Origin: Tepidimicrobium xylanilyticum
GTDB lineage: Bacteria > Bacillota > Clostridia > Tissierellales > Tepidimicrobiaceae
Assembly: GCF_900106765.1 (NCBI RefSeq)
Contig: NZ_FNNG01000010.1
Span: 1-64,000 of the forward strand
DNA: 64,000 nucleotides
Direction: 5' to 3'
Part shown: one piece after another, positions 6,972 through 64,000 of the stretch
Position numbering within the stretch: position 1 is the first letter of the stretch
Layout of the letters: each line of letters begins with the position of its first letter
The notes under the pieces: model-generated
Told to the model about the DNA's origin: nothing
Databases searched by the model: none
The model's input: only the letters and a program-made list of their open reading frames with translations
Made by a program: the position numbers and the translations under genes

Positions 6972-7078
6972 CTCTTTCTTATCTTTCGGTATAACACATA
7001 CCGCTGGATTTAGCACCTTGTGTACACAGGTTGCCGGGTTTCACTGGGCCAGATCCCTCCACCACTCTTGATAAGAGC
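6972..7078 (-). promoter_or_regulatory. SAM-I (S-box) riboswitch
   Basis: The minus strand carries the S-box core: CTCTTATC opening P1, AGAGTGGTGGAGGGA, then CTGGCCC, GTGAAACCCGGCAACC and the closing GATAAGA. High S-adenosylmethionine should favour the terminator and switch off metNIQ. Assignment rests on the conserved core sequence and on the methionine transport genes behind it. Confidence 0.95.
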
Positions 7079-17098: not shown

Positions 17099-18190
17099 AT
17101 GACAAAAACAGCAATTTTCCCTGGAAGATATGTTCAGGGGAGTGGAGAACTAAAAAGAATTAAAAATCATGTAGAGCATTTAGGAAGTTCATTTTTTATC
17201 CTCATTAGCAAATCAGGGTATAAAAGGTTTGGGGATTCAATAAAAGAAAGCTTTGGAGGTTCTGTAAAAATAGACTTCGTCGAATTTAATGGCGAATGTT
17301 CAAAAAATGAAATAAATAGATTGCGTGATGAGTTTAAAGCAAAGGGATCCGATGTAATTATAGGAGTAGGAGGAGGTAAAATTCTAGATACTGCAAAGGC
17401 GGTTGCGTATTATGAAAAGGTGCCTGTAGTTATTGTGCCAACTATAGCAAGTACCGATGCACCTTGTAGTGCTTTGTCTGTTATTTATACTGATGATGGA
17501 ATTTTCGATGAATATTTATTCTTACCTAAAAATCCAGATATGGTATTAATTGACCTTGATGCAATTGCTAATGCTCCTTCACGATTGTTGGTAGCAGGGA
17601 TGGGAGATGCGTTGGCCACAAAATTTGAAGCTAGAGCTGCAGCAAAAGCTGGGGCTAAGAATATGGCTGGGGCATATCCTACAGATGCTGCAATGGCATT
17701 AGCTAATCTTTGCTACGAAACATTAATAAACGAAGGGTTAAAAGCTAAATTAGCTGTAGATAAGAAAGTAGTGACTAAATCAGTTGAAAAAGTAGTTGAA
17801 GCAAATACTCTATTAAGTGGTATTGGATTTGAAAGTGGTGGCCTTGCAGCTGCTCATGCTATTCATAACGGTTTAACAGCCATTGAAGAAACTCATGAAT
17901 TATATCATGGCGAAAAGGTTGCATTTGGTGTTTTAGTACAATTGGTATTGGAAAATGCGCCTATAGACGAAATAGAAGAAGTGCTATATTTCTGCAATGA
18001 AGTAGGATTGCCAACTACATTAAAAGAATTAAATATTAAAGAAGTATCGAAAGAAAAATTAATGGATGTTGCAAAATTAAGCTGCGCGGAAGGAGAGACC
18101 ATTTTCAATATGCCTTTTGAAGTCACACCGGAAGATGTTTATGCAGCTATATTGGCAGCTGATGCTTTGGGCGAAAATTTTAAGCTATAG
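17099..18190 (+). CDS. gldA: Glycerol dehydrogenase, NAD+- and Zn-dependent
   Basis: The start chosen is ATG 17099, 7 bases after AAGGAGGGG, giving 363 residues; E. coli GldA is similar in size. The protein opens with TAIFPGRYVQGSGELKRI, and contains the NAD loop GVGGGKILDTAKA and PTIASTDAPCSALSVIY. The Zn ligands are visible in MGDALATKFEAR, AAHAIHNGLT and HELYHGEKVAFG. It oxidises glycerol to dihydroxyacetone in the cytosol, which the DhaKLM system encoded at 61533-63597 could phosphorylate. It stands alone with its own terminator. Confidence 0.95.
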   Translation: MTKTAIFPGRYVQGSGELKRIKNHVEHLGSSFFILISKSGYKRFGDSIKESFGGSVKIDFVEFNGECSKNEINRLRDEFKAKGSDVIIGVGGGKILDTAKAVAYYEKVPVVIVPTIASTDAPCSALSVIYTDDGIFDEYLFLPKNPDMVLIDLDAIANAPSRLLVAGMGDALATKFEARAAAKAGAKNMAGAYPTDAAMALANLCYETLINEGLKAKLAVDKKVVTKSVEKVVEANTLLSGIGFESGGLAAAHAIHNGLTAIEETHELYHGEKVAFGVLVQLVLENAPIDEIEEVLYFCNEVGLPTTLKELNIKEVSKEKLMDVAKLSCAEGETIFNMPFEVTPEDVYAAILAADALGENFKL

Positions 18191-57876: not shown

Positions 57877-57910
57877 AAGGTATGGAGTCAAATAGGCTCC
57901 ATACCTTTTA
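57874..57910. terminator. Bidirectional terminator between korB remnant and glp operon
   Basis: AAAAGGTATGGAG and CTCCATACCTTTT form a perfect stem around an 8-base loop; it overlaps the ends of both reading frames. Confidence 0.85.
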
Positions 57911-58273
57911 GCCAACAGATTTAGTTGCAATTAAATTGGCATTGGTATTCAATATGTTTGTTAAAATTAAATCTCCTACTTCAACGGGCAATTCTACCTC
58001 TAAGCCCCTTATCACATCCATTACTTGGAAGATCTTATCCTTTGGAATGCCTTTGTCGGTTCTTACTGATAACATATTATTAGATATTCCTCTTATTCTT
58101 ACAGTAGATGTAAGAACTCTGGTAGGATTAGTCATTTCTTCAATTGCGTATTTCAACCCTCTATTACATTTATTGCCATTAACTTTATATCCATCTTTAG
58201 ATGTAGAATCCTTTTCAATGATTAAATTGCATCCAATAGGACATACTATGCATATCTTTTCTATTTTGTCCAT
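57908..58273 (-). CDS. DUF1667 protein (glpABC-type operon, third gene)
   Basis: The start is ATG 58271-58273 after GGGAGGGATTAAA; an ATG overlapping the upstream stop (58289-58291) is in frame but lacks a ribosome site. The ~121-residue protein has C-x2-C-x3-C and a fourth Cys (CIVCPIGC near residue 8 and NKCNRG near residue 36), which could hold a [4Fe-4S] cluster or zinc. DUF1667 proteins accompany GlpA/GlpB-like flavoproteins in anaerobic Firmicutes and are thought to be an electron-transfer subunit. It is the last gene of the operon. Confidence 0.85.
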   Translation of the reverse strand: MDKIEKICIVCPIGCNLIIEKDSTSKDGYKVNGNKCNRGLKYAIEEMTNPTRVLTSTVRIRGISNNMLSVRTDKGIPKDKIFQVMDVIRGLEVELPVEVGDLILTNILNTNANLIATKSVG

Positions 58274-58287
58274 TTTAATCCCTCCCG

Positions 58288-59547
58288 TCATTTAAGATAA
58301 ATCGTAATTTCTTTTTGGGCTATCCCAGCTAGTGAGTTTTTTTCTAGAAAGATGGATTCCATTTGTGATGGAAATACTTGATTTTTCTTTATTCTTTTTA
58401 TTACTTTTCCATTAGATTCTATTAAAATCTCAATGCCTCTATAAATATTGTTTACCCTATAGAATAGTTTCAAATTCTCGTTTAAGTTATCAGTATTTAT
58501 ATATTGGGGAATGACATATCTAATACCATTACCTGTACGTAATCTTACTCTATTTGTTTCAATGACTTTCCTTTTATTAATCCTTTCAATATATTCAAAG
58601 GCTTTTTCACCAGCTTTATAGGCTTCCATGGTTACATTATCTACTAAGTCATGGACATGGAGCACATTACCACAGGCAAATATTCCTTCAACACTGGTTT
58701 CTAAAGAATCATTTACTATGGGTCCAGAAGTAAGGGGATCAATTTTGATGCCTGCACTTTTGGACAATTCATTTTCAGGAATAAGTCCTACTGAAAGGAT
58801 TAAGGTATCGCATTCAATATATTTTTCTGTTCCTTTTATTATATTCCTATTTTTATCAACCTTTGCTAAAACTACTCCTTCTAATCTATTCTTGCCTTTA
58901 ATCTCTATTACAGTATGTTCTAACAGTAAGGGAATGTTAAAGTCTTCTAAACACTGGACGATATTTCTATTTAACCCATTAGGATAAGGCATTATTTCAG
59001 CTACAGCTTCTACTTTCGTACCTTCTAGGGTTAATCTTCTTGCCATAATCAGTCCAATGTCACCAGAACCTAAAATTACAGCTTTTTTACCTACCATATA
59101 TCCTTCCATGTTAATAAACCTTTGGGCAGTTCCAGCGGTAAATATTCCGCTAGGTCTAGAACCGGGAATATTAATTGCTCCTCTGGGTCTTTCTCTACAT
59201 CCCATGGCTAGGATTATTGCTTTTGCTTGAATCTTAAAAAATCCATCTTTCGAATTGATTACAGATAATTCTTTATTATTGTTTATATCTAATACGAATG
59301 TATTTAACTTATAATCTATGTTAAGCTCTTTGATTTCGTCTATAAAAATCTTTGCATATTCGGGACCAGTTAGCTCTTTTTTGAAAAGATGCAGTCCAAA
59401 GCCATTATGGATACATTGATTTAAAATCCCTCCCAATTCTCTATCCCTTTCTATAATCAATATATCTTTTATACCTTTTTTCCTTGCGCTAATTGCAGCG
59501 GCTAAACCAGCAGGCCCCCCTCCAATAATTACTAAATCATAATTCAA
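58288..59547 (-). CDS. FAD/NAD-dependent oxidoreductase, G3P dehydrogenase partner subunit
   Basis: The preferred start is TTG 59545-59547, 5 bases after GGAGGTGA; an upstream ATG is unlikely. The ~419-residue flavoprotein opens YDLVIIGGGPAGLAAAISA and has a second dinucleotide motif AVILGSGDIGLIMARR plus the FAD-closing FACGNVLHVHDLVDN. It is a pyridine-nucleotide-disulfide-type enzyme without the redox Cys pair. Between a GlpA-like protein and DUF1667 it is the expected second subunit for anaerobic glycerol-3-phosphate oxidation. Confidence 0.88.
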   Translation of the reverse strand: MNYDLVIIGGGPAGLAAAISARKKGIKDILIIERDRELGGILNQCIHNGFGLHLFKKELTGPEYAKIFIDEIKELNIDYKLNTFVLDINNNKELSVINSKDGFFKIQAKAIILAMGCRERPRGAINIPGSRPSGIFTAGTAQRFINMEGYMVGKKAVILGSGDIGLIMARRLTLEGTKVEAVAEIMPYPNGLNRNIVQCLEDFNIPLLLEHTVIEIKGKNRLEGVVLAKVDKNRNIIKGTEKYIECDTLILSVGLIPENELSKSAGIKIDPLTSGPIVNDSLETSVEGIFACGNVLHVHDLVDNVTMEAYKAGEKAFEYIERINKRKVIETNRVRLRTGNGIRYVIPQYINTDNLNENLKLFYRVNNIYRGIEILIESNGKVIKRIKKNQVFPSQMESIFLEKNSLAGIAQKEITIYLK

Positions 59548-59567
59548 ATTTGTCACCTCCATCATGA

Positions 59568-60998
59568 TTATTTGGTCTTACCAGTTAATATATAAGAACC
59601 TAGACCATCCTTTAGAGTTTTTTCTATTTCCTCATTCATTTCCCTTGCTAATATCTCCATTACACGAGGCAAACAAAAACCTCCTTGACATCTACCGGAA
59701 CCAGGTCTTGCTCTTCTTTTAATTCCATCAACAGTTCTTGCACCGGCCTTCCTATGGATAGCATCTAATATTTCTCCTTCCGTTACTGTTTCACAACGGC
59801 AAATTATATTACCATATTTAGGATTTTCTTTTATCAATCGATCCTTTTCTTCATCAGAAAGTTCTGCAAATCTAATCACTTTTTTTCTATAAGGGTTGAA
59901 ATTTTTACTCTCATTCAATCCACCATAAATATTACCAACTAGATTTACGACATATTCAGCTATGGCAGGGGAAGCAGATAATCCTGGCGATTTAATGCCT
60001 GCGACATTTATAAATCCTGGGGAATCTTCCACTTCTTCAATTATGAAATCTCCTGTATCTGGTTCAGCCCTAACTCCTGCAAAAGTTGTAATAACTTGTT
60101 CAAACGGGATATTAGGTACGGATCTTGTAGCTACTTCTTTTATATATTTTAATCTGAGAGTTTCTGTTCTCGTATCTTCCCTTTCTTCTATTATTTCACT
60201 ATCAGGACCTACTATTAAATTTCCATGAACTGTTGGAGTTACTACTACTCCTTTTCCTTTTTCAGTTGGGCATTGGAATATTACTTTATTAACTAGATTT
60301 CCTGCCATTTTATCTAATAGGTAGTACTGTCCCTTCTTAGGAATAATATTTAATTTTTTGTCGGATACCATATTGTTTAACTTATCAGCATATATTCCAG
60401 CGCAGTTAACTATAATTTTAGTTATTATGTTTCCTAGATTGGTAACGATTTTATAGCCGTTATTTGATTTAGTAATATCTTGTACTTCTGTATTTAATTT
60501 AAGCTCAACACCATTTTCCATTGCATTTTCTGCTAGTGCAATTGCCAATTCCCAAGGTCCAATAATGCCAGCGGTTCTGGCATATAAAGCACCCTTAACA
60601 TCATCGGATATATTTGGTTCTATTTTCTTAGCTTGTTTTCCATCTAAAATTTCCATCTGAGGTATTTTGGATTTTAATCCATTTTCAAATAATTTTTCTA
60701 TAGTTATTAAGTCTTCTTGATTAAAGGCAAGGACTAAGGACCCAATCCGTTTGAAGGGCACATCCAACTCTTTACAAATCTTATCAAACATAGGATTACC
60801 TCGCACATTGAAATACCCCATTTTACTATTATAAGGAGCATCGAATCCAGCGTGTATTATGGCAGTATTTGCTTTAGTAGTCCCGTTAGAGATATCGTTT
60901 TCTTTATCTATGAGTAATATTTTTAATTCATATCTGGACAATTCTCTAGCAATGAAAGTTCCAGTTATTCCAGCGCCAACTATGACTACATCATACAT
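59568..60998 (-). CDS. glpA: Glycerol-3-phosphate dehydrogenase (GlpA-like)
   Basis: The start is ATG 60996-60998 after AAAGGAGG, giving 476 residues. The FAD motif is DVVIVGAGITGTFIARE; the central DAO domain ends GFINVAGIKSPGLSASPAIAEYV. The C-terminal ~90 residues are a Fer2_BFD [2Fe-2S] domain with C-R-C and C-x4-C (CRCETV, GRCQGGFC). This fits the GlpA subunit that oxidises G3P to DHAP. It is first in a three-gene operon whose leader carries a GlpP-type antitermination site. Confidence 0.92.
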   Translation of the reverse strand: MYDVVIVGAGITGTFIARELSRYELKILLIDKENDISNGTTKANTAIIHAGFDAPYNSKMGYFNVRGNPMFDKICKELDVPFKRIGSLVLAFNQEDLITIEKLFENGLKSKIPQMEILDGKQAKKIEPNISDDVKGALYARTAGIIGPWELAIALAENAMENGVELKLNTEVQDITKSNNGYKIVTNLGNIITKIIVNCAGIYADKLNNMVSDKKLNIIPKKGQYYLLDKMAGNLVNKVIFQCPTEKGKGVVVTPTVHGNLIVGPDSEIIEEREDTRTETLRLKYIKEVATRSVPNIPFEQVITTFAGVRAEPDTGDFIIEEVEDSPGFINVAGIKSPGLSASPAIAEYVVNLVGNIYGGLNESKNFNPYRKKVIRFAELSDEEKDRLIKENPKYGNIICRCETVTEGEILDAIHRKAGARTVDGIKRRARPGSGRCQGGFCLPRVMEILAREMNEEIEKTLKDGLGSYILTGKTK

Positions 60999-61023
60999 AA
61001 CAAGACCTCCTTTAAAAGAAATA

Positions 61024-61064
61024 TAAAAAAACCACACCTTACCCTTTTCGGGCAAAAGTGTGGT
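61024..61064 (-). terminator. Leader terminator of the glpA operon
   Basis: On the minus strand ACCACACTTTTGCCC pairs with the downstream GGGTAAGGTGTGGT, followed by a run of T, 26 bases before the glpA start. Its 5' arm overlaps the leader motif at 61059-61079, so anti-termination is the likely control. Confidence 0.85.
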
Positions 61065-61079
61065 TCTCGATTCTCAACC
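61059..61079 (-). promoter_or_regulatory. Putative GlpP antiterminator site, glpA leader
   Basis: The minus strand reads GGTTGAGAA, TC, GAGAACCACA. It matches the motif in the dhaK leader (61367-61388) and overlaps the terminator 5' arm. Confidence 0.65.
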
Positions 61080-61103
61080 ATGGTATTTAATTTTCTTACT
61101 ATT

Positions 61104-61132
61104 ATTATATAATTATGTTGAAAGAAAGTAAA
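61104..61132 (-). promoter_or_regulatory. Predicted promoter of the glpA operon
   Basis: On the minus strand TTTACT and TATAAT are 17 bases apart, about 25 bases before the leader motif. Confidence 0.55.
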
Positions 61133-61301
61133 GTAGAAAAATAAAAATTTAAAATATTCATAATACTAGCAAGTTTATCATATACTGTACCAAATGTTGA
61201 TACATTATTATATTTACAAAAAAGATACCCAAGAAAATCGTAGTATTTTTTAAAAGTATTTGAATGTTTTTAGAGCTTAATCATAAATTTCCAAAATATT
61301 C

Positions 61302-61330
61302 TTGACATAAAACTTGATTTATGGTATTAT
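61302..61330 (+). promoter_or_regulatory. Strong sigma-A promoter of the dhaK operon
   Basis: A consensus TTGACA is followed after exactly 17 bases by TATTAT, 37 bases before the leader motif. Confidence 0.8.
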
Positions 61331-61366
61331 TCGTAATAAATATAAGAATTTTGCAAATTTATATTC

Positions 61367-61388
61367 GGTGGAGAAGAAGAGAGCCGCA
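61367..61388 (+). promoter_or_regulatory. Putative GlpP antiterminator site, dhaK leader
   Basis: GGTGGAGAA, GAA, GAGAGCCGCA. The same pattern stands in the glpA leader, and again it overlaps the 5' arm of an intrinsic terminator. Confidence 0.65.
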
Positions 61389-61436
61389 ATTTATTTAACC
61401 TACTTTATTATAAGGTTAAATAGTTGTGGCTTTTTA
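61382..61436 (+). terminator. Leader terminator of the dhaK operon
   Basis: AGCCGCAATTTATTTAACC pairs with GGTTAAATAGTTGTGGCT (a few wobbles) around an AT loop, followed by TTTT. It lies ~95 bases upstream of dhaK. Confidence 0.85.
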
Positions 61437-61532
61437 TGCTTATATGCACAAGTTACTTTCCTTACCATATGTTTAAAATAGGGTACATAAATTGTCATTT
61501 TAAATAAAAAGTATTATAATAGGGGTGATTTT

Positions 61533-62528
61533 TTGAAAAAGATAATCAATGGCAGTGATAAGGTAGTAGAGGAAATGCTTCAGGGGATGGTAAAAGCTCA
61601 TCCAGAATTTATAAAAAGGGTAGAGAATAGCAATGTTCTAATCAGAAAGGATTCACCAGTAAAGGGAAAAGTTGCTCTAATAAGTGGAGGCGGAAGTGGG
61701 CACGAACCTTCCCATGGAGGTTTTGTAGGCCTAGGTATGTTAGATGGAGCTGTGGCAGGTGAGGTGTTTACATCTCCAACACCTGAAGAGGTTTATAAGG
61801 GAATTAAAGCTGTAAATGGAGGAAAGGGTGTACTGTTAATTATTAAAAATTATACCGGAGATGTGATGAACTTTGAAATGGCAGCAGAAATGGCTGAAAT
61901 GGAAGGAATTAAAGTAGAAAAAGTAGTAGTAAATGACGATGTAGCTATGGAGGATTCAACTTATACTGTAGGCAGAAGGGGAATAGCAGGAACAGTCTTA
62001 GTTCATAAAATAACAGGAGCAGCAGCAGAAAGGGGATTGGATTTATTAGAGGTTAAAAGGGTGGCAGAAAAGGCAATAGAAAATACTCGTTCTATGGGAA
62101 TGTCTTTAACACCATGTGTAGTTCCTGCAGCAGGGAAACCCAGCTTCGAGATAGGAGAAGACGAAATGGAAATAGGACTAGGCATTCACGGAGAGCCGGG
62201 AACTCATAAGGAAAAGATAAAAACAGCAAATAAAATAACAACCATATTATTAGATAAGATAATAAAGGATATGAAACTAAAAAATAAAGAAGTTGCTGTA
62301 TTGGTCAATGGATTAGGAGGAACACCACTAATGGAACTATATATAGTTAATAGGGAAGTTCATAGGATCTTGGAAGATCAGGGAATAAAGGTATATAAGA
62401 CAATAGTAGGCAATTATATGACATCTTTAGAGATGGCTGGGATATCGATTTCATTACTAGAATTAGATGAAGAACTAAAGGGATTTTTAGATGATAGAGC
62501 CTATACACCTGCATTTCGACAAATATAG
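61533..62528 (+). CDS. dhaK: Dihydroxyacetone kinase subunit DhaK (PEP-dependent type)
   Basis: The 331-residue protein starts at TTG after AGGGGTGA. It has the DHA-binding motifs SGGGSGHEPSHGGFVG and the covalent-hemiaminal His in GIHGEPG. DhaK binds dihydroxyacetone, which is phosphorylated by ADP-loaded DhaL fed by DhaM. The order dhaK-dhaL-dhaM is standard. Its leader terminator and the glpP gene downstream link it to glycerol control. Confidence 0.96.
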   Translation: MKKIINGSDKVVEEMLQGMVKAHPEFIKRVENSNVLIRKDSPVKGKVALISGGGSGHEPSHGGFVGLGMLDGAVAGEVFTSPTPEEVYKGIKAVNGGKGVLLIIKNYTGDVMNFEMAAEMAEMEGIKVEKVVVNDDVAMEDSTYTVGRRGIAGTVLVHKITGAAAERGLDLLEVKRVAEKAIENTRSMGMSLTPCVVPAAGKPSFEIGEDEMEIGLGIHGEPGTHKEKIKTANKITTILLDKIIKDMKLKNKEVAVLVNGLGGTPLMELYIVNREVHRILEDQGIKVYKTIVGNYMTSLEMAGISISLLELDEELKGFLDDRAYTPAFRQI

Positions 62529-62549: not shown

Positions 62550-63182
62550 ATGGGCGACACTTCATTATTATTAGAAATAGTAAAGAATATGTCAAAAAAT
62601 ATAATAGAAAGTAAAGAACTATTAACTGAACTGGATAGGGTTATAGGAGATTCAGACCATGGAATAAATATGGCTAAGGGTTTCAGTGCAATCAATGACA
62701 AACTAGAGGAAATGGAAGGGAAAGATTGGGGCTGTATTCTAAAGACCGTAGCCATGACTCTGATATCTACAGTAGGAGGTGCTTCTGGGCCTCTATATGG
62801 TACAGGTTTTTTAAGGGCTGCTACAGTAGTGGAAGGAAAAAAGGAAATAGATAAGGATGATGTCGTAAATATGTTTGATGAAGCAATTAAAGGTATAAAG
62901 ATGAGAGGAAAATCCAACAGAGGGGATAAAACCATGTTAGACGCACTAATCCCTGCTTATGAAGCCCTTAAGTTAGCTTACGAAGAAGGACAAAATAGCC
63001 TTAAAGCATTTAAAAGAGCCGAAGAATCAGCATTGGAAGGCGTTGAATATACTAAAACCATTATAGCTAAGAAGGGGAGGGCCAGTTATCTTGGTGAAAG
63101 GAGCCTGGGACACCAAGATCCCGGGGCTACTTCAAGCTACATTATTATCAAATCTATAACTGAGATATTAGAGAAAAATTAG
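62550..63182 (+). CDS. dhaL: Dihydroxyacetone kinase subunit DhaL
   Basis: The 210-residue protein has the ADP/Mg site DRVIGDSDHGINMAKG, then GGASGPLYGTGF, KTMLDAL and the end SLGHQDPGATS, all standard for DhaL. It keeps a bound ADP that is rephosphorylated by DhaM and passes phosphate to DHA on DhaK. GGAGGGGATAAA precedes the ATG. Confidence 0.96.
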   Translation: MGDTSLLLEIVKNMSKNIIESKELLTELDRVIGDSDHGINMAKGFSAINDKLEEMEGKDWGCILKTVAMTLISTVGGASGPLYGTGFLRAATVVEGKKEIDKDDVVNMFDEAIKGIKMRGKSNRGDKTMLDALIPAYEALKLAYEEGQNSLKAFKRAEESALEGVEYTKTIIAKKGRASYLGERSLGHQDPGATSSYIIIKSITEILEKN

Positions 63183-63192
63183 GAGGGGAATC

Positions 63193-63597
63193 GTGATTGG
63201 ATTAGTAGTTGTATCACATAGCAGGAAAATTGCAGAAGGGGTAGTGGAACTTATATATGAAATGGTAGATAAAGATTTCAAAATAATACCTGCGGGGGGC
63301 ACCAGTGACGGCAGGATTGGAACTGATCCCATAATGATTAAGGAAGCTATAGAAAAAGCTTATGATGGGGATGGAATAGGGATAATTGTAGATATAGGAA
63401 GTTCTCTAATGAACGCTGAATTAGCTATAGAATTGCTAGAAGAGGAAATAAGAAAGAAAGTAATAATTTTAGATACCCCTATTGTAGAAGGTAGCATATC
63501 TGTAGCAGTACAAGCATATATATCTAATAATATGGAGGAAGTTTTAAAAGCTGCAGAAGAAGCACGAACAACTAAAAAGTTGCAGGAGCAATTTTAA
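63193..63597 (+). CDS. dhaM: PTS-type phosphotransfer subunit DhaM (EIIA domain only)
   Basis: The 134-residue protein starts at GTG after AGGAGGGGAATC. It is an EIIA-mannose-type domain with the phospho-His in VVSHSRKIAEGV and the motif GGTSDGRIGTDP. It accepts phosphate from HPr and rephosphorylates DhaL-ADP. It lacks the HPr/EI extensions found in E. coli DhaM, which is usual for Firmicutes. Confidence 0.95.
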   Translation: MIGLVVVSHSRKIAEGVVELIYEMVDKDFKIIPAGGTSDGRIGTDPIMIKEAIEKAYDGDGIGIIVDIGSSLMNAELAIELLEEEIRKKVIILDTPIVEGSISVAVQAYISNNMEEVLKAAEEARTTKKLQEQF

Positions 63598-63622: not shown

Positions 63623-64000
63623 ATGGGAAATTTTTTTAACGCTATAAGCCAAAACCCGATTATTGCAGCAATTAATGATTTGGATAAATTAGATAAGGTT
63701 ATTCAATCGCCTTGTAAAGCTGTGTTTTTACTAACGGGAAATATATTGGATTTAAGTTTTATTGTTTCTAAGTTAAAGGAAAATGCTAAGCTAGTATATG
63801 TTCATGTAGATTTGATAGATGGGCTTTCAAAAGACGAGGTGGCAATAAAATTCCTCAATACTCATGTTAAACTAGATGGAATAATAACTACTAAGGCTAA
63901 TTTGGTGAAAGTTGCTAAGGAGTTAAAGCTATTTGTTATTCAAAGATTATTCATATTAGATTCTTTAGCCTTAGATTCTGGTATTAACGCTGTAAAAACT
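63623..64000 (+). CDS. glpP: Glycerol operon antiterminator GlpP, N-terminal part (cut by right edge)
   Basis: The ATG at 63623 follows TTTAGAGGGGG, and 126 codons are open to the window edge. The protein begins NFFNAISQNPIIAAIND, then FLLTGNILDLSFIVSKLK, VYVHVDLIDGLSKDE and GIITTKANLVKVAKELKLFVIQRLFILDS, the TIM-barrel-like pattern of GlpP. In Bacillus, GlpP bound to glycerol-3-phosphate prevents termination in glp leaders. It is in the dhaKLM operon, so it would also control its own supply. Confidence 0.93.
   Translation, partial: MGNFFNAISQNPIIAAINDLDKLDKVIQSPCKAVFLLTGNILDLSFIVSKLKENAKLVYVHVDLIDGLSKDEVAIKFLNTHVKLDGIITTKANLVKVAKELKLFVIQRLFILDSLALDSGINAVKT

Follow-up and report, generated by a model that had tools for sequence, protein, structure and literature searches.

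The two divergent glycerol operons of the window, i.e. the whole 64,000-nt stretch of DNA that was analysed (positions 1–64000 of contig C10 of a 3.0-Mb genome, which gene content and relatives place in the class Clostridia), are each preceded by a leader for which two folds are predicted, a short hairpin and an intrinsic terminator. A GlpP/G3P-dependent switch between these folds very probably governs both leaders, with GlpP as the putative binder, G3P as the putative signal and readthrough as the expected outcome. The regulation is of a known kind, namely GlpP antitermination, in a variant in which glpP and dhaKLM lie inside the controlled operon. The newer aspect is a covarying RNA family and its probable reach to E. 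coli.

The two gene sets diverge from the region 60998–61533, the glpO set leftwards and the dhaK set rightwards, and comprise the following genes:

57908–58291, minus strand: DUF1667 protein, third gene of the glpO operon (domain search).
58288–59565, minus strand: pyridine nucleotide-disulphide oxidoreductase, glpB-like partner (label from position and fold).
59568–60998, minus strand: glpO/glpA-like FAD oxidoreductase with a BFD [2Fe-2S] domain (domain search; nearest NCBIfam below cut-off).
61533–62528, plus strand: dhaK (TIGR02363, 504.5 bits, above cut-off).
62550–63182, plus strand: dhaL (TIGR02365, above cut-off).
63193–63597, plus strand: dhaM, EIIA-Man-like phosphoryl donor (TIGR02364, above cut-off).
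63623–64000 in the window, ending at contig position 64186, plus strand: glpP (PF04309, E 1.4e-66, full length).
Contig 64274–65002, past the window edge: glpF, directly after glpP.
Contig 65030–66529, past the window edge: glpK, directly after glpF.

The start of glpO was set at the ATG that follows AGGAGG, the longest frame beginning at 61055. An initial annotation, made from the sequence of the window, had named this gene glpA; the product is indeed a GlpO/GlpA-type FAD enzyme and its nearest NCBIfam is the type 2 G3P oxidase, but it falls below the cut-off of that family. The same annotation had placed glpP at 63623 at the end of dhaKLM. The position is right, but the operon does not end there, as glpF and glpK come next. 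Including the contig beyond the window, the rightward order is dhaK-dhaL-dhaM-glpP-glpF-glpK, with intergenic gaps of 10 to 87 nt. Thus, dhaKLM is part of a glp operon in which GlpP is encoded as well, the dhaK leader doubles as the leader of glpF-glpK, and a full-length PF04309 protein is encoded alongside the genes that it would regulate.

A shared leader motif, GGT[GT]GAGAA-N2/3-GAGA[AG]CC[AG]CA, had been reported before both operons and was found in exactly two copies in the 64 kb (61367–61388, plus strand; 61079–61059, minus strand). Folding and scanning bore out that both copies overlap the 5′ arm of an intrinsic terminator. The letters of the motif stand, but its linear reading is better replaced by a covarying hairpin of the form arm-GAGA-N-GAGA-arm. 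The elements of the two leaders are:

61024–61068, minus strand: glpO-leader intrinsic terminator with T-run, the 5′ arm of which contains the hairpin 3′ arm (about −23 to −25 kcal/mol).
61061–61080, minus strand: predicted glpO antiterminator hairpin, TGGTT[GAGAATCGAG]AACCA (from sequence; −3.0 kcal/mol).
61104–61132, minus strand: promoter-like site TTTACT-17-TATAAT of the glpO operon (consensus only).
61302–61330, plus strand: promoter-like site TTGACA-17-TATTAT of the dhaK operon (consensus only).
61366–61386, plus strand: predicted dhaK antiterminator hairpin, CGGT[GGAGAAGAAGAGA]GCCG (−2.3 kcal/mol).
61379–61435, plus strand: dhaK-leader intrinsic terminator with T-run (−24.5 kcal/mol).
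61492–61520: promoter-like site TTGTCA-17-TATAAT after the dhaK terminator (consensus only).

In each leader, a terminator accordingly lies between the promoter, as placed by consensus only, and the first gene. The dhaK hairpin comprises four pairs only, one of them G-U, and a shifted register (GTGG/CCGC) is also possible. The dhaK terminator hairpin has an 11-nt loop and is visible by folding; a simple terminator scanner found only the glpO terminator. A composite scan for a hairpin with an overlapping terminator yielded just these two elements in the window. When the whole genome was searched with covariance model R1, the training of which included both leaders, these were recovered at E 2.5e-6 and 8.4e-5, and there was no further match at E ≤ 0.1 in the rest of the genome. 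A riboswitch was rejected: apart from the small loop, no conserved aptamer was seen, and no Rfam family reached its gathering score on the window leaders or on the leaders of seven other loci. Rfam scanning also revealed a SAM riboswitch elsewhere in the window (6976–7077, minus strand, 93 bits) and a weak full-length match of the dhaK leader (61357–61451) to SpF43, a Streptococcus sRNA (21.9 of 70 bits, E 0.017–0.068). SpF43 may itself be a leader of the GlpP-hairpin type.

Hairpin and terminator cannot coexist, because the hairpin 3′ arm belongs to the terminator 5′ arm, and the unaided terminator is predicted to win since the hairpin contributes no more than −2.3 to −3.0 kcal/mol. Folded stepwise, the glpO leader showed its hairpin in the optimal structure from 38 to 62 nt and lost it as the terminator was completed. 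The dhaK leader was less clean, with the shifted register at 52 nt, other weak folds and then the terminator. According to the proposed switch, leader RNA left to itself would fold into the long terminator and transcription would stop before the genes. During glycerol use, G3P would accumulate, and G3P-bound GlpP would bind and stabilise the hairpin with the two GAGA boxes in its loop. The stabilised hairpin would withhold its 3′ arm from the terminator, and RNA polymerase would continue past both leaders, entering the glpO operon leftwards and dhaK-dhaL-dhaM-glpP-glpF-glpK rightwards. Because glpP lies within the read-through operon, GlpP would raise its own synthesis in a positive feedback, and the PEP-dependent DHA kinase would be co-induced with glycerol uptake and phosphorylation.

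The alternative that survives best is that GlpP recognises the purine-rich GAGA boxes in single-stranded form, both ahead of and inside the terminator 5′ arm, the short hairpin being incidental. It draws on the GAGA boxes being the most conserved letters of the element and on the weakness of the dhaK hairpin (−2.3 kcal/mol), which has two possible registers. We consider it unlikely in view of the arms themselves: the 5′ arm is not part of the terminator and nothing else would make it match the 3′ arm, yet relatives pair them in many different stems of up to 8 bp. The sample consisted of 80 stretches around glpP from family and class genomes plus the first eight named records. For an unselected pairing test, terminators upstream of glp genes with GAG..GAG at the 5′ arm were taken, pairing not being required, which gave 39 rows. 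The mean arm score was 6.72 vs 3.78 after permutation (sd 0.38, maximum 5.18, 10,000 permutations). At least 3 bp were formed in 36 of the 39 leaders and at least 4 bp in 30, and permuting the 3′ flanks among rows left at least 4 bp in 14.3 rows on average, with a maximum of 23 (10,000 permutations).

In a curated set of 42 rows, pairing is seen in 39, through 31 different stems. This set derives from 46 listed leaders, 45 of which passed the selection script (the glpO leader of L078 failed) and 42 of which entered alignment A1, from which the near-duplicates L107, L125 and L140 were omitted. Five rows with GAG..GAG by a terminator had been removed by eye before curation (L113 DUF1667, L114 GlpP, L116 GlpP, L131 GlpO and L136 GlpK); they were kept in the unselected test, where four are among the weak rows. 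The stems include GGT/ACC, GGC/GCC, GTG/CAC, TGCA/TGCA, GTGCTT/AAGCAC and, as the longest with 8 bp, TTTGATAC/GTATCAAA. Two models were built by register because the variable loop flanks prevented one MAFFT alignment from holding all stems. Alignment A5 had 88% of its cells paired and a covariation of 0.987 (shuffled, 0.291; best slid version, 0.213), and alignment A2, which represents the window's own type, had 78.7% paired and a covariation of 0.387 (shuffled, 0.179; best slid version, 0.250). The rows of A2 and A5 were chosen by register and thus selected for pairing, which makes the unselected test the cleaner one. The glpO leaders of L105, L108 and L110 have GGC..GCC-like arms and a GGAGA box, with the first GAG missing, and were left uncounted.

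The hairpin can be tied to GlpP through Bacillus. According to one report, B. subtilis GlpP with G3P activates glp genes from three promoters by disrupting 5′ UTR terminators (PMC9604022), and another describes glpP in a yhxA-glpP transcript (PMC3997798). Seventeen named Bacilli loci were retrieved with a B. subtilis-like GlpP query. The composite scanner, which had been written after the clostridial, Cytobacillus, E. coli and Streptomyces leaders and predates the fetching of these loci, found a match before glpF or glpD in 16 of the 17, so the same element is present in Bacillus glp leaders; L213 had none, and five extra matches look like chance. In all eight Bacillus loci close to B. subtilis, the glpD leader carries GGTC[CTGAGAYGAGGAGA]GACC over a terminator of −34 to −38 kcal/mol; these loci, which do not include B. 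subtilis, encode a GlpP 90–94% identical to the query. For B. spizizenii, the scanner missed the glpF leader, in which TGTG[ATGGAGAACTCGGAGAC]CACA is seen by eye. Since the same hairpin occurs in Bacillus glp leaders and the GlpP proteins are homologous, the element is linked to GlpP by homology of both partners.

Likeness to GlpP antitermination at B. subtilis glpD, glpFK and glpT(Q) thus extends to the PF04309 regulator, the leader terminator, the glycerol/G3P genes and, as seen in the eight close Bacillus glpD leaders, the arm-GAGA-GAGA-arm hairpin over the terminator. Unlike in B. subtilis, an operon under presumed GlpP control here includes glpP itself as well as dhaKLM, and the two leaders share one divergent intergenic region. 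RAT antiterminators of the BglG/LicT-SacY type are short hairpins that compete with a terminator and prevail only with the help of a protein. The leaders described here may work by analogy, with a short terminator-excluding hairpin dependent on a protein, but the protein belongs to PF04309, Pfam finds no BglG-type domain in this GlpP, and the window leaders match no Rfam family, known antiterminators and riboswitches included, at gathering score. In the accessible parts of the literature found, the GlpP target is named only as a binding site or terminator and not as a hairpin (PMC3750489, PMC9604022, PMC3997798, PMC6225680, PMC2965389); the Bacillus hairpin may already be drawn in Holmberg and Rutberg 1991/1992, in Glatz 1996/1998 or in figure S1 of PMC9604022.

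Across genomes, the element accompanies glpP. PF04309 was found above cut-off in 19 of 20 family genomes (17 with full-length proteins, two with short partial ones only) and in 66 of 196 sampled class genomes. Two covariance models were used, R1 from the window's register and R2 from another, both trained on glpP-locus leaders; searches over more than 40 genomes were run under stricter filters. At E ≤ 1e-3, R1 gave 14 matches in 10 genomes of the class sample and R2 gave 21 in 20, i.e. 30 genomes combined. Strong matches were present in 29 of the 66 glpP-positive vs one of the 130 glpP-negative genomes and, without the 15 training genomes, in 15/51 vs 1/130 (Fisher 1.3e-8, phylogeny not corrected for). 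The sole glpP-negative exception (G134, 84% complete) has a hairpin and an overlapping terminator before a transporter-like gene. Neither model matched strongly in the remaining 37 glpP-positive genomes, and among 59 class-sample GlpP loci the element lies before a glp gene in 30, with none within the fetched stretch in 29. Counting was limited to E ≤ 1e-3 because most R1 matches scoring in the range of about 23 to 26 bits are due to chance (20 loci, L173–L192); one of them, L177, looks real. The threshold also drops convincing sites between 1e-3 and 0.01 (L194 and L195 of G059). Eleven of the 20 weak loci share the recurring sequence GGTGGAGATGAGGAGA-TCGAACTCC, which by its letters resembles a tRNA- or tmRNA-type 3′ end read in the complement.

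The composite scan of 98 loci (1.45 Mb), which were picked around glpP or R1 matches, gave 65 matches, compared with 10 when the sequence was reversed and 6.8 for each Markov shuffle pass. In 50 cases the match stands before a glp gene or before dhaK (33 glpO, 6 glpF, 4 glpP, 4 glpK, 2 dhaK, 1 glpD), and the other 15 include the E. coli and Streptomyces sites, together with some that are likely chance. With these counts and the 29/66 vs 1/130 split, the check proposed in the initial annotation, that the motif should co-occur with terminators in glpP-bearing relatives, was passed. A loose DNA pattern allowing three mismatches was useless genome-wide (139 + 185 matches vs 139 + 208 in a backward control). 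Composite matches were also seen before non-glp genes (L147 3053, L196 7194, L126 5488, L143 9380), identified by eye as those for a HAD-type phosphatase, an extracellular solute-binding protein, a BCCT-like transporter and an unknown membrane protein. These four are possible further regulon members.

The window's genome encodes two full PF04309 proteins, the operon GlpP and an orphan at 312294 of contig C2 (L013 9223–9822), and proteins of the orphan type are conserved across the family. The binder might thus be this second GlpP, or some other RNA-binding protein, instead of the operon GlpP, which we regard as improbable given how the element is distributed. Of 89 GlpP proteins in a tree, 18 fall in the orphan clade (support 98/91), namely the second GlpP of the window's genome and 17 others from its order, including one that belongs to the next family, and the leader element was not found in the loci of any of the 18. 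In the 20 family genomes, R1 gave nine matches at E ≤ 1e-3, in exactly the five genomes with operon-type GlpP, and the 12 genomes with no full-length GlpP other than the orphan type had no strong R1 match. The element therefore tracks operon-type GlpP and not the mere presence of PF04309. The remaining alternative, that the terminators are constitutive or ordinary gene-end ones, with promoters after them driving expression and the motif acting as a DNA element, has in its favour the promoter-like site at 61492–61520 between terminator and dhaK, which could give unregulated dhaK expression, but it is very improbable, as the flanking genes diverge, so that neither terminator can end an upstream gene, the arms covary at the RNA level, and promoter-like sites in the region are no commoner than chance (8 vs 7.0 expected).

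The GlpP/G3P-dependent switch remains the preferred reading, and its extension to DHA kinase, which had been claimed together with GlpP control of its own operon, holds in part: circuit and parts are there by layout, but DHA kinase is not a general target. In both searched genomes of the window's genus (L012, L076), dhaKLM lies between the leader and glpP, and in another genus of the family (L077, L078) the same leader stands directly before glpP-glpF-glpK. To judge from these gene orders, dhaKLM was most likely inserted into a pre-existing glpPFK operon. A class survey found a dhaK match in 34 genomes, and in the 30 dhaK loci fetched the leader element was upstream of one only, the window's own, an arrangement that the sister species has too; a general link between GlpP and DHA kinase was rejected on this count. 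Other layouts bring the genes together. Two genomes from the taxonomic order of the window's genome, G083 and G183, have glpP-dhaL-dhaM-dhaK-glpF-glpK in a single run; the composite scan finds no element in G083 (L159), and a looser scan shows AAAGAC[ATGAGATGAGAGA]GTCTTT before its glpP. In Tuberibacillus calidus, dhaKLM is just upstream of glpP and the hairpin is found after glpP, before glpF. Taken together, these layouts and the single case among 30 loci suggest that GlpP control of DHA kinase is local, if perhaps repeated. The window also contains a glycerol dehydrogenase gene, gldA (17099–18184; NF006941, 551 bits), the product of which is the likely source of DHA for DhaKLM; gldA was rejected as a further target, as the composite scan of the window found no leader element there.

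In the eight first named records, GAG..GAG by a terminator was searched for without stem demand. This gave 10 matches, six of them with a hairpin: the glpF/glpD leaders of Cytobacillus and the E. coli record account for two each, Paenibacillus and Streptomyces for one each. The E. coli pair (L119 14117–14323) occupies divergent leaders over terminators, with AGTTACC[AGAGATAATGAGAAA]GGTAACT (7 bp) and ATTACT[AGAGACCTGAGAAA]AGTAAT (6 bp). The region is annotated ygcW / yqcE in five listed records and is at least 80% covered in 4997 of 5426 E. coli genomes, the hairpin itself having been read in one strain. The E. coli PF04309 protein is presumably YgcP (gene ygcP). As in the window, two divergent leaders with GlpP-type hairpins overlie terminators; unlike in the window, they precede genes for an SDR oxidoreductase and an MFS transporter, and the PF04309 gene is about 6 kb away. 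In Streptomyces clavuligerus (L122 8738–8770), AGTTACT[AGAGACCAGAGAAC]AGTAACT, with 7 bp, separates the PF04309 gene from one for an SDR protein. In the tree of 89, the PF04309 proteins of E. coli and Streptomyces group with two class members (support 99/97). A literature search for ygcP/ygcW/yqcE or a YgcP antiterminator found no paper on such a role.

On balance, we favour the view that all these leaders belong to a single RNA family not described so far. Its members would be antiterminator hairpins, each with two loop GAGA boxes, that PF04309 proteins (GlpP, YgcP) read in Clostridia and Bacilli as well as in E. coli and Streptomyces, and the stem of which drifts freely while pairing and complementarity to the terminator are kept. 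If so, E. coli YgcP would bind RNA and act as antiterminator for the divergent ygcW and yqcE transcripts, and a little-studied protein would gain a testable function. With the covarying hairpin, footprinting, mutant studies and genome annotation have a defined target, which also helps to assign operons to the GlpP regulon in anaerobes. PEP-dependent DHA kinase is usually tied to the glycerol-dehydrogenase route; in this genus, it would be coupled to G3P, the signal from the glycerol-kinase route, and GlpP would act back on its own synthesis.
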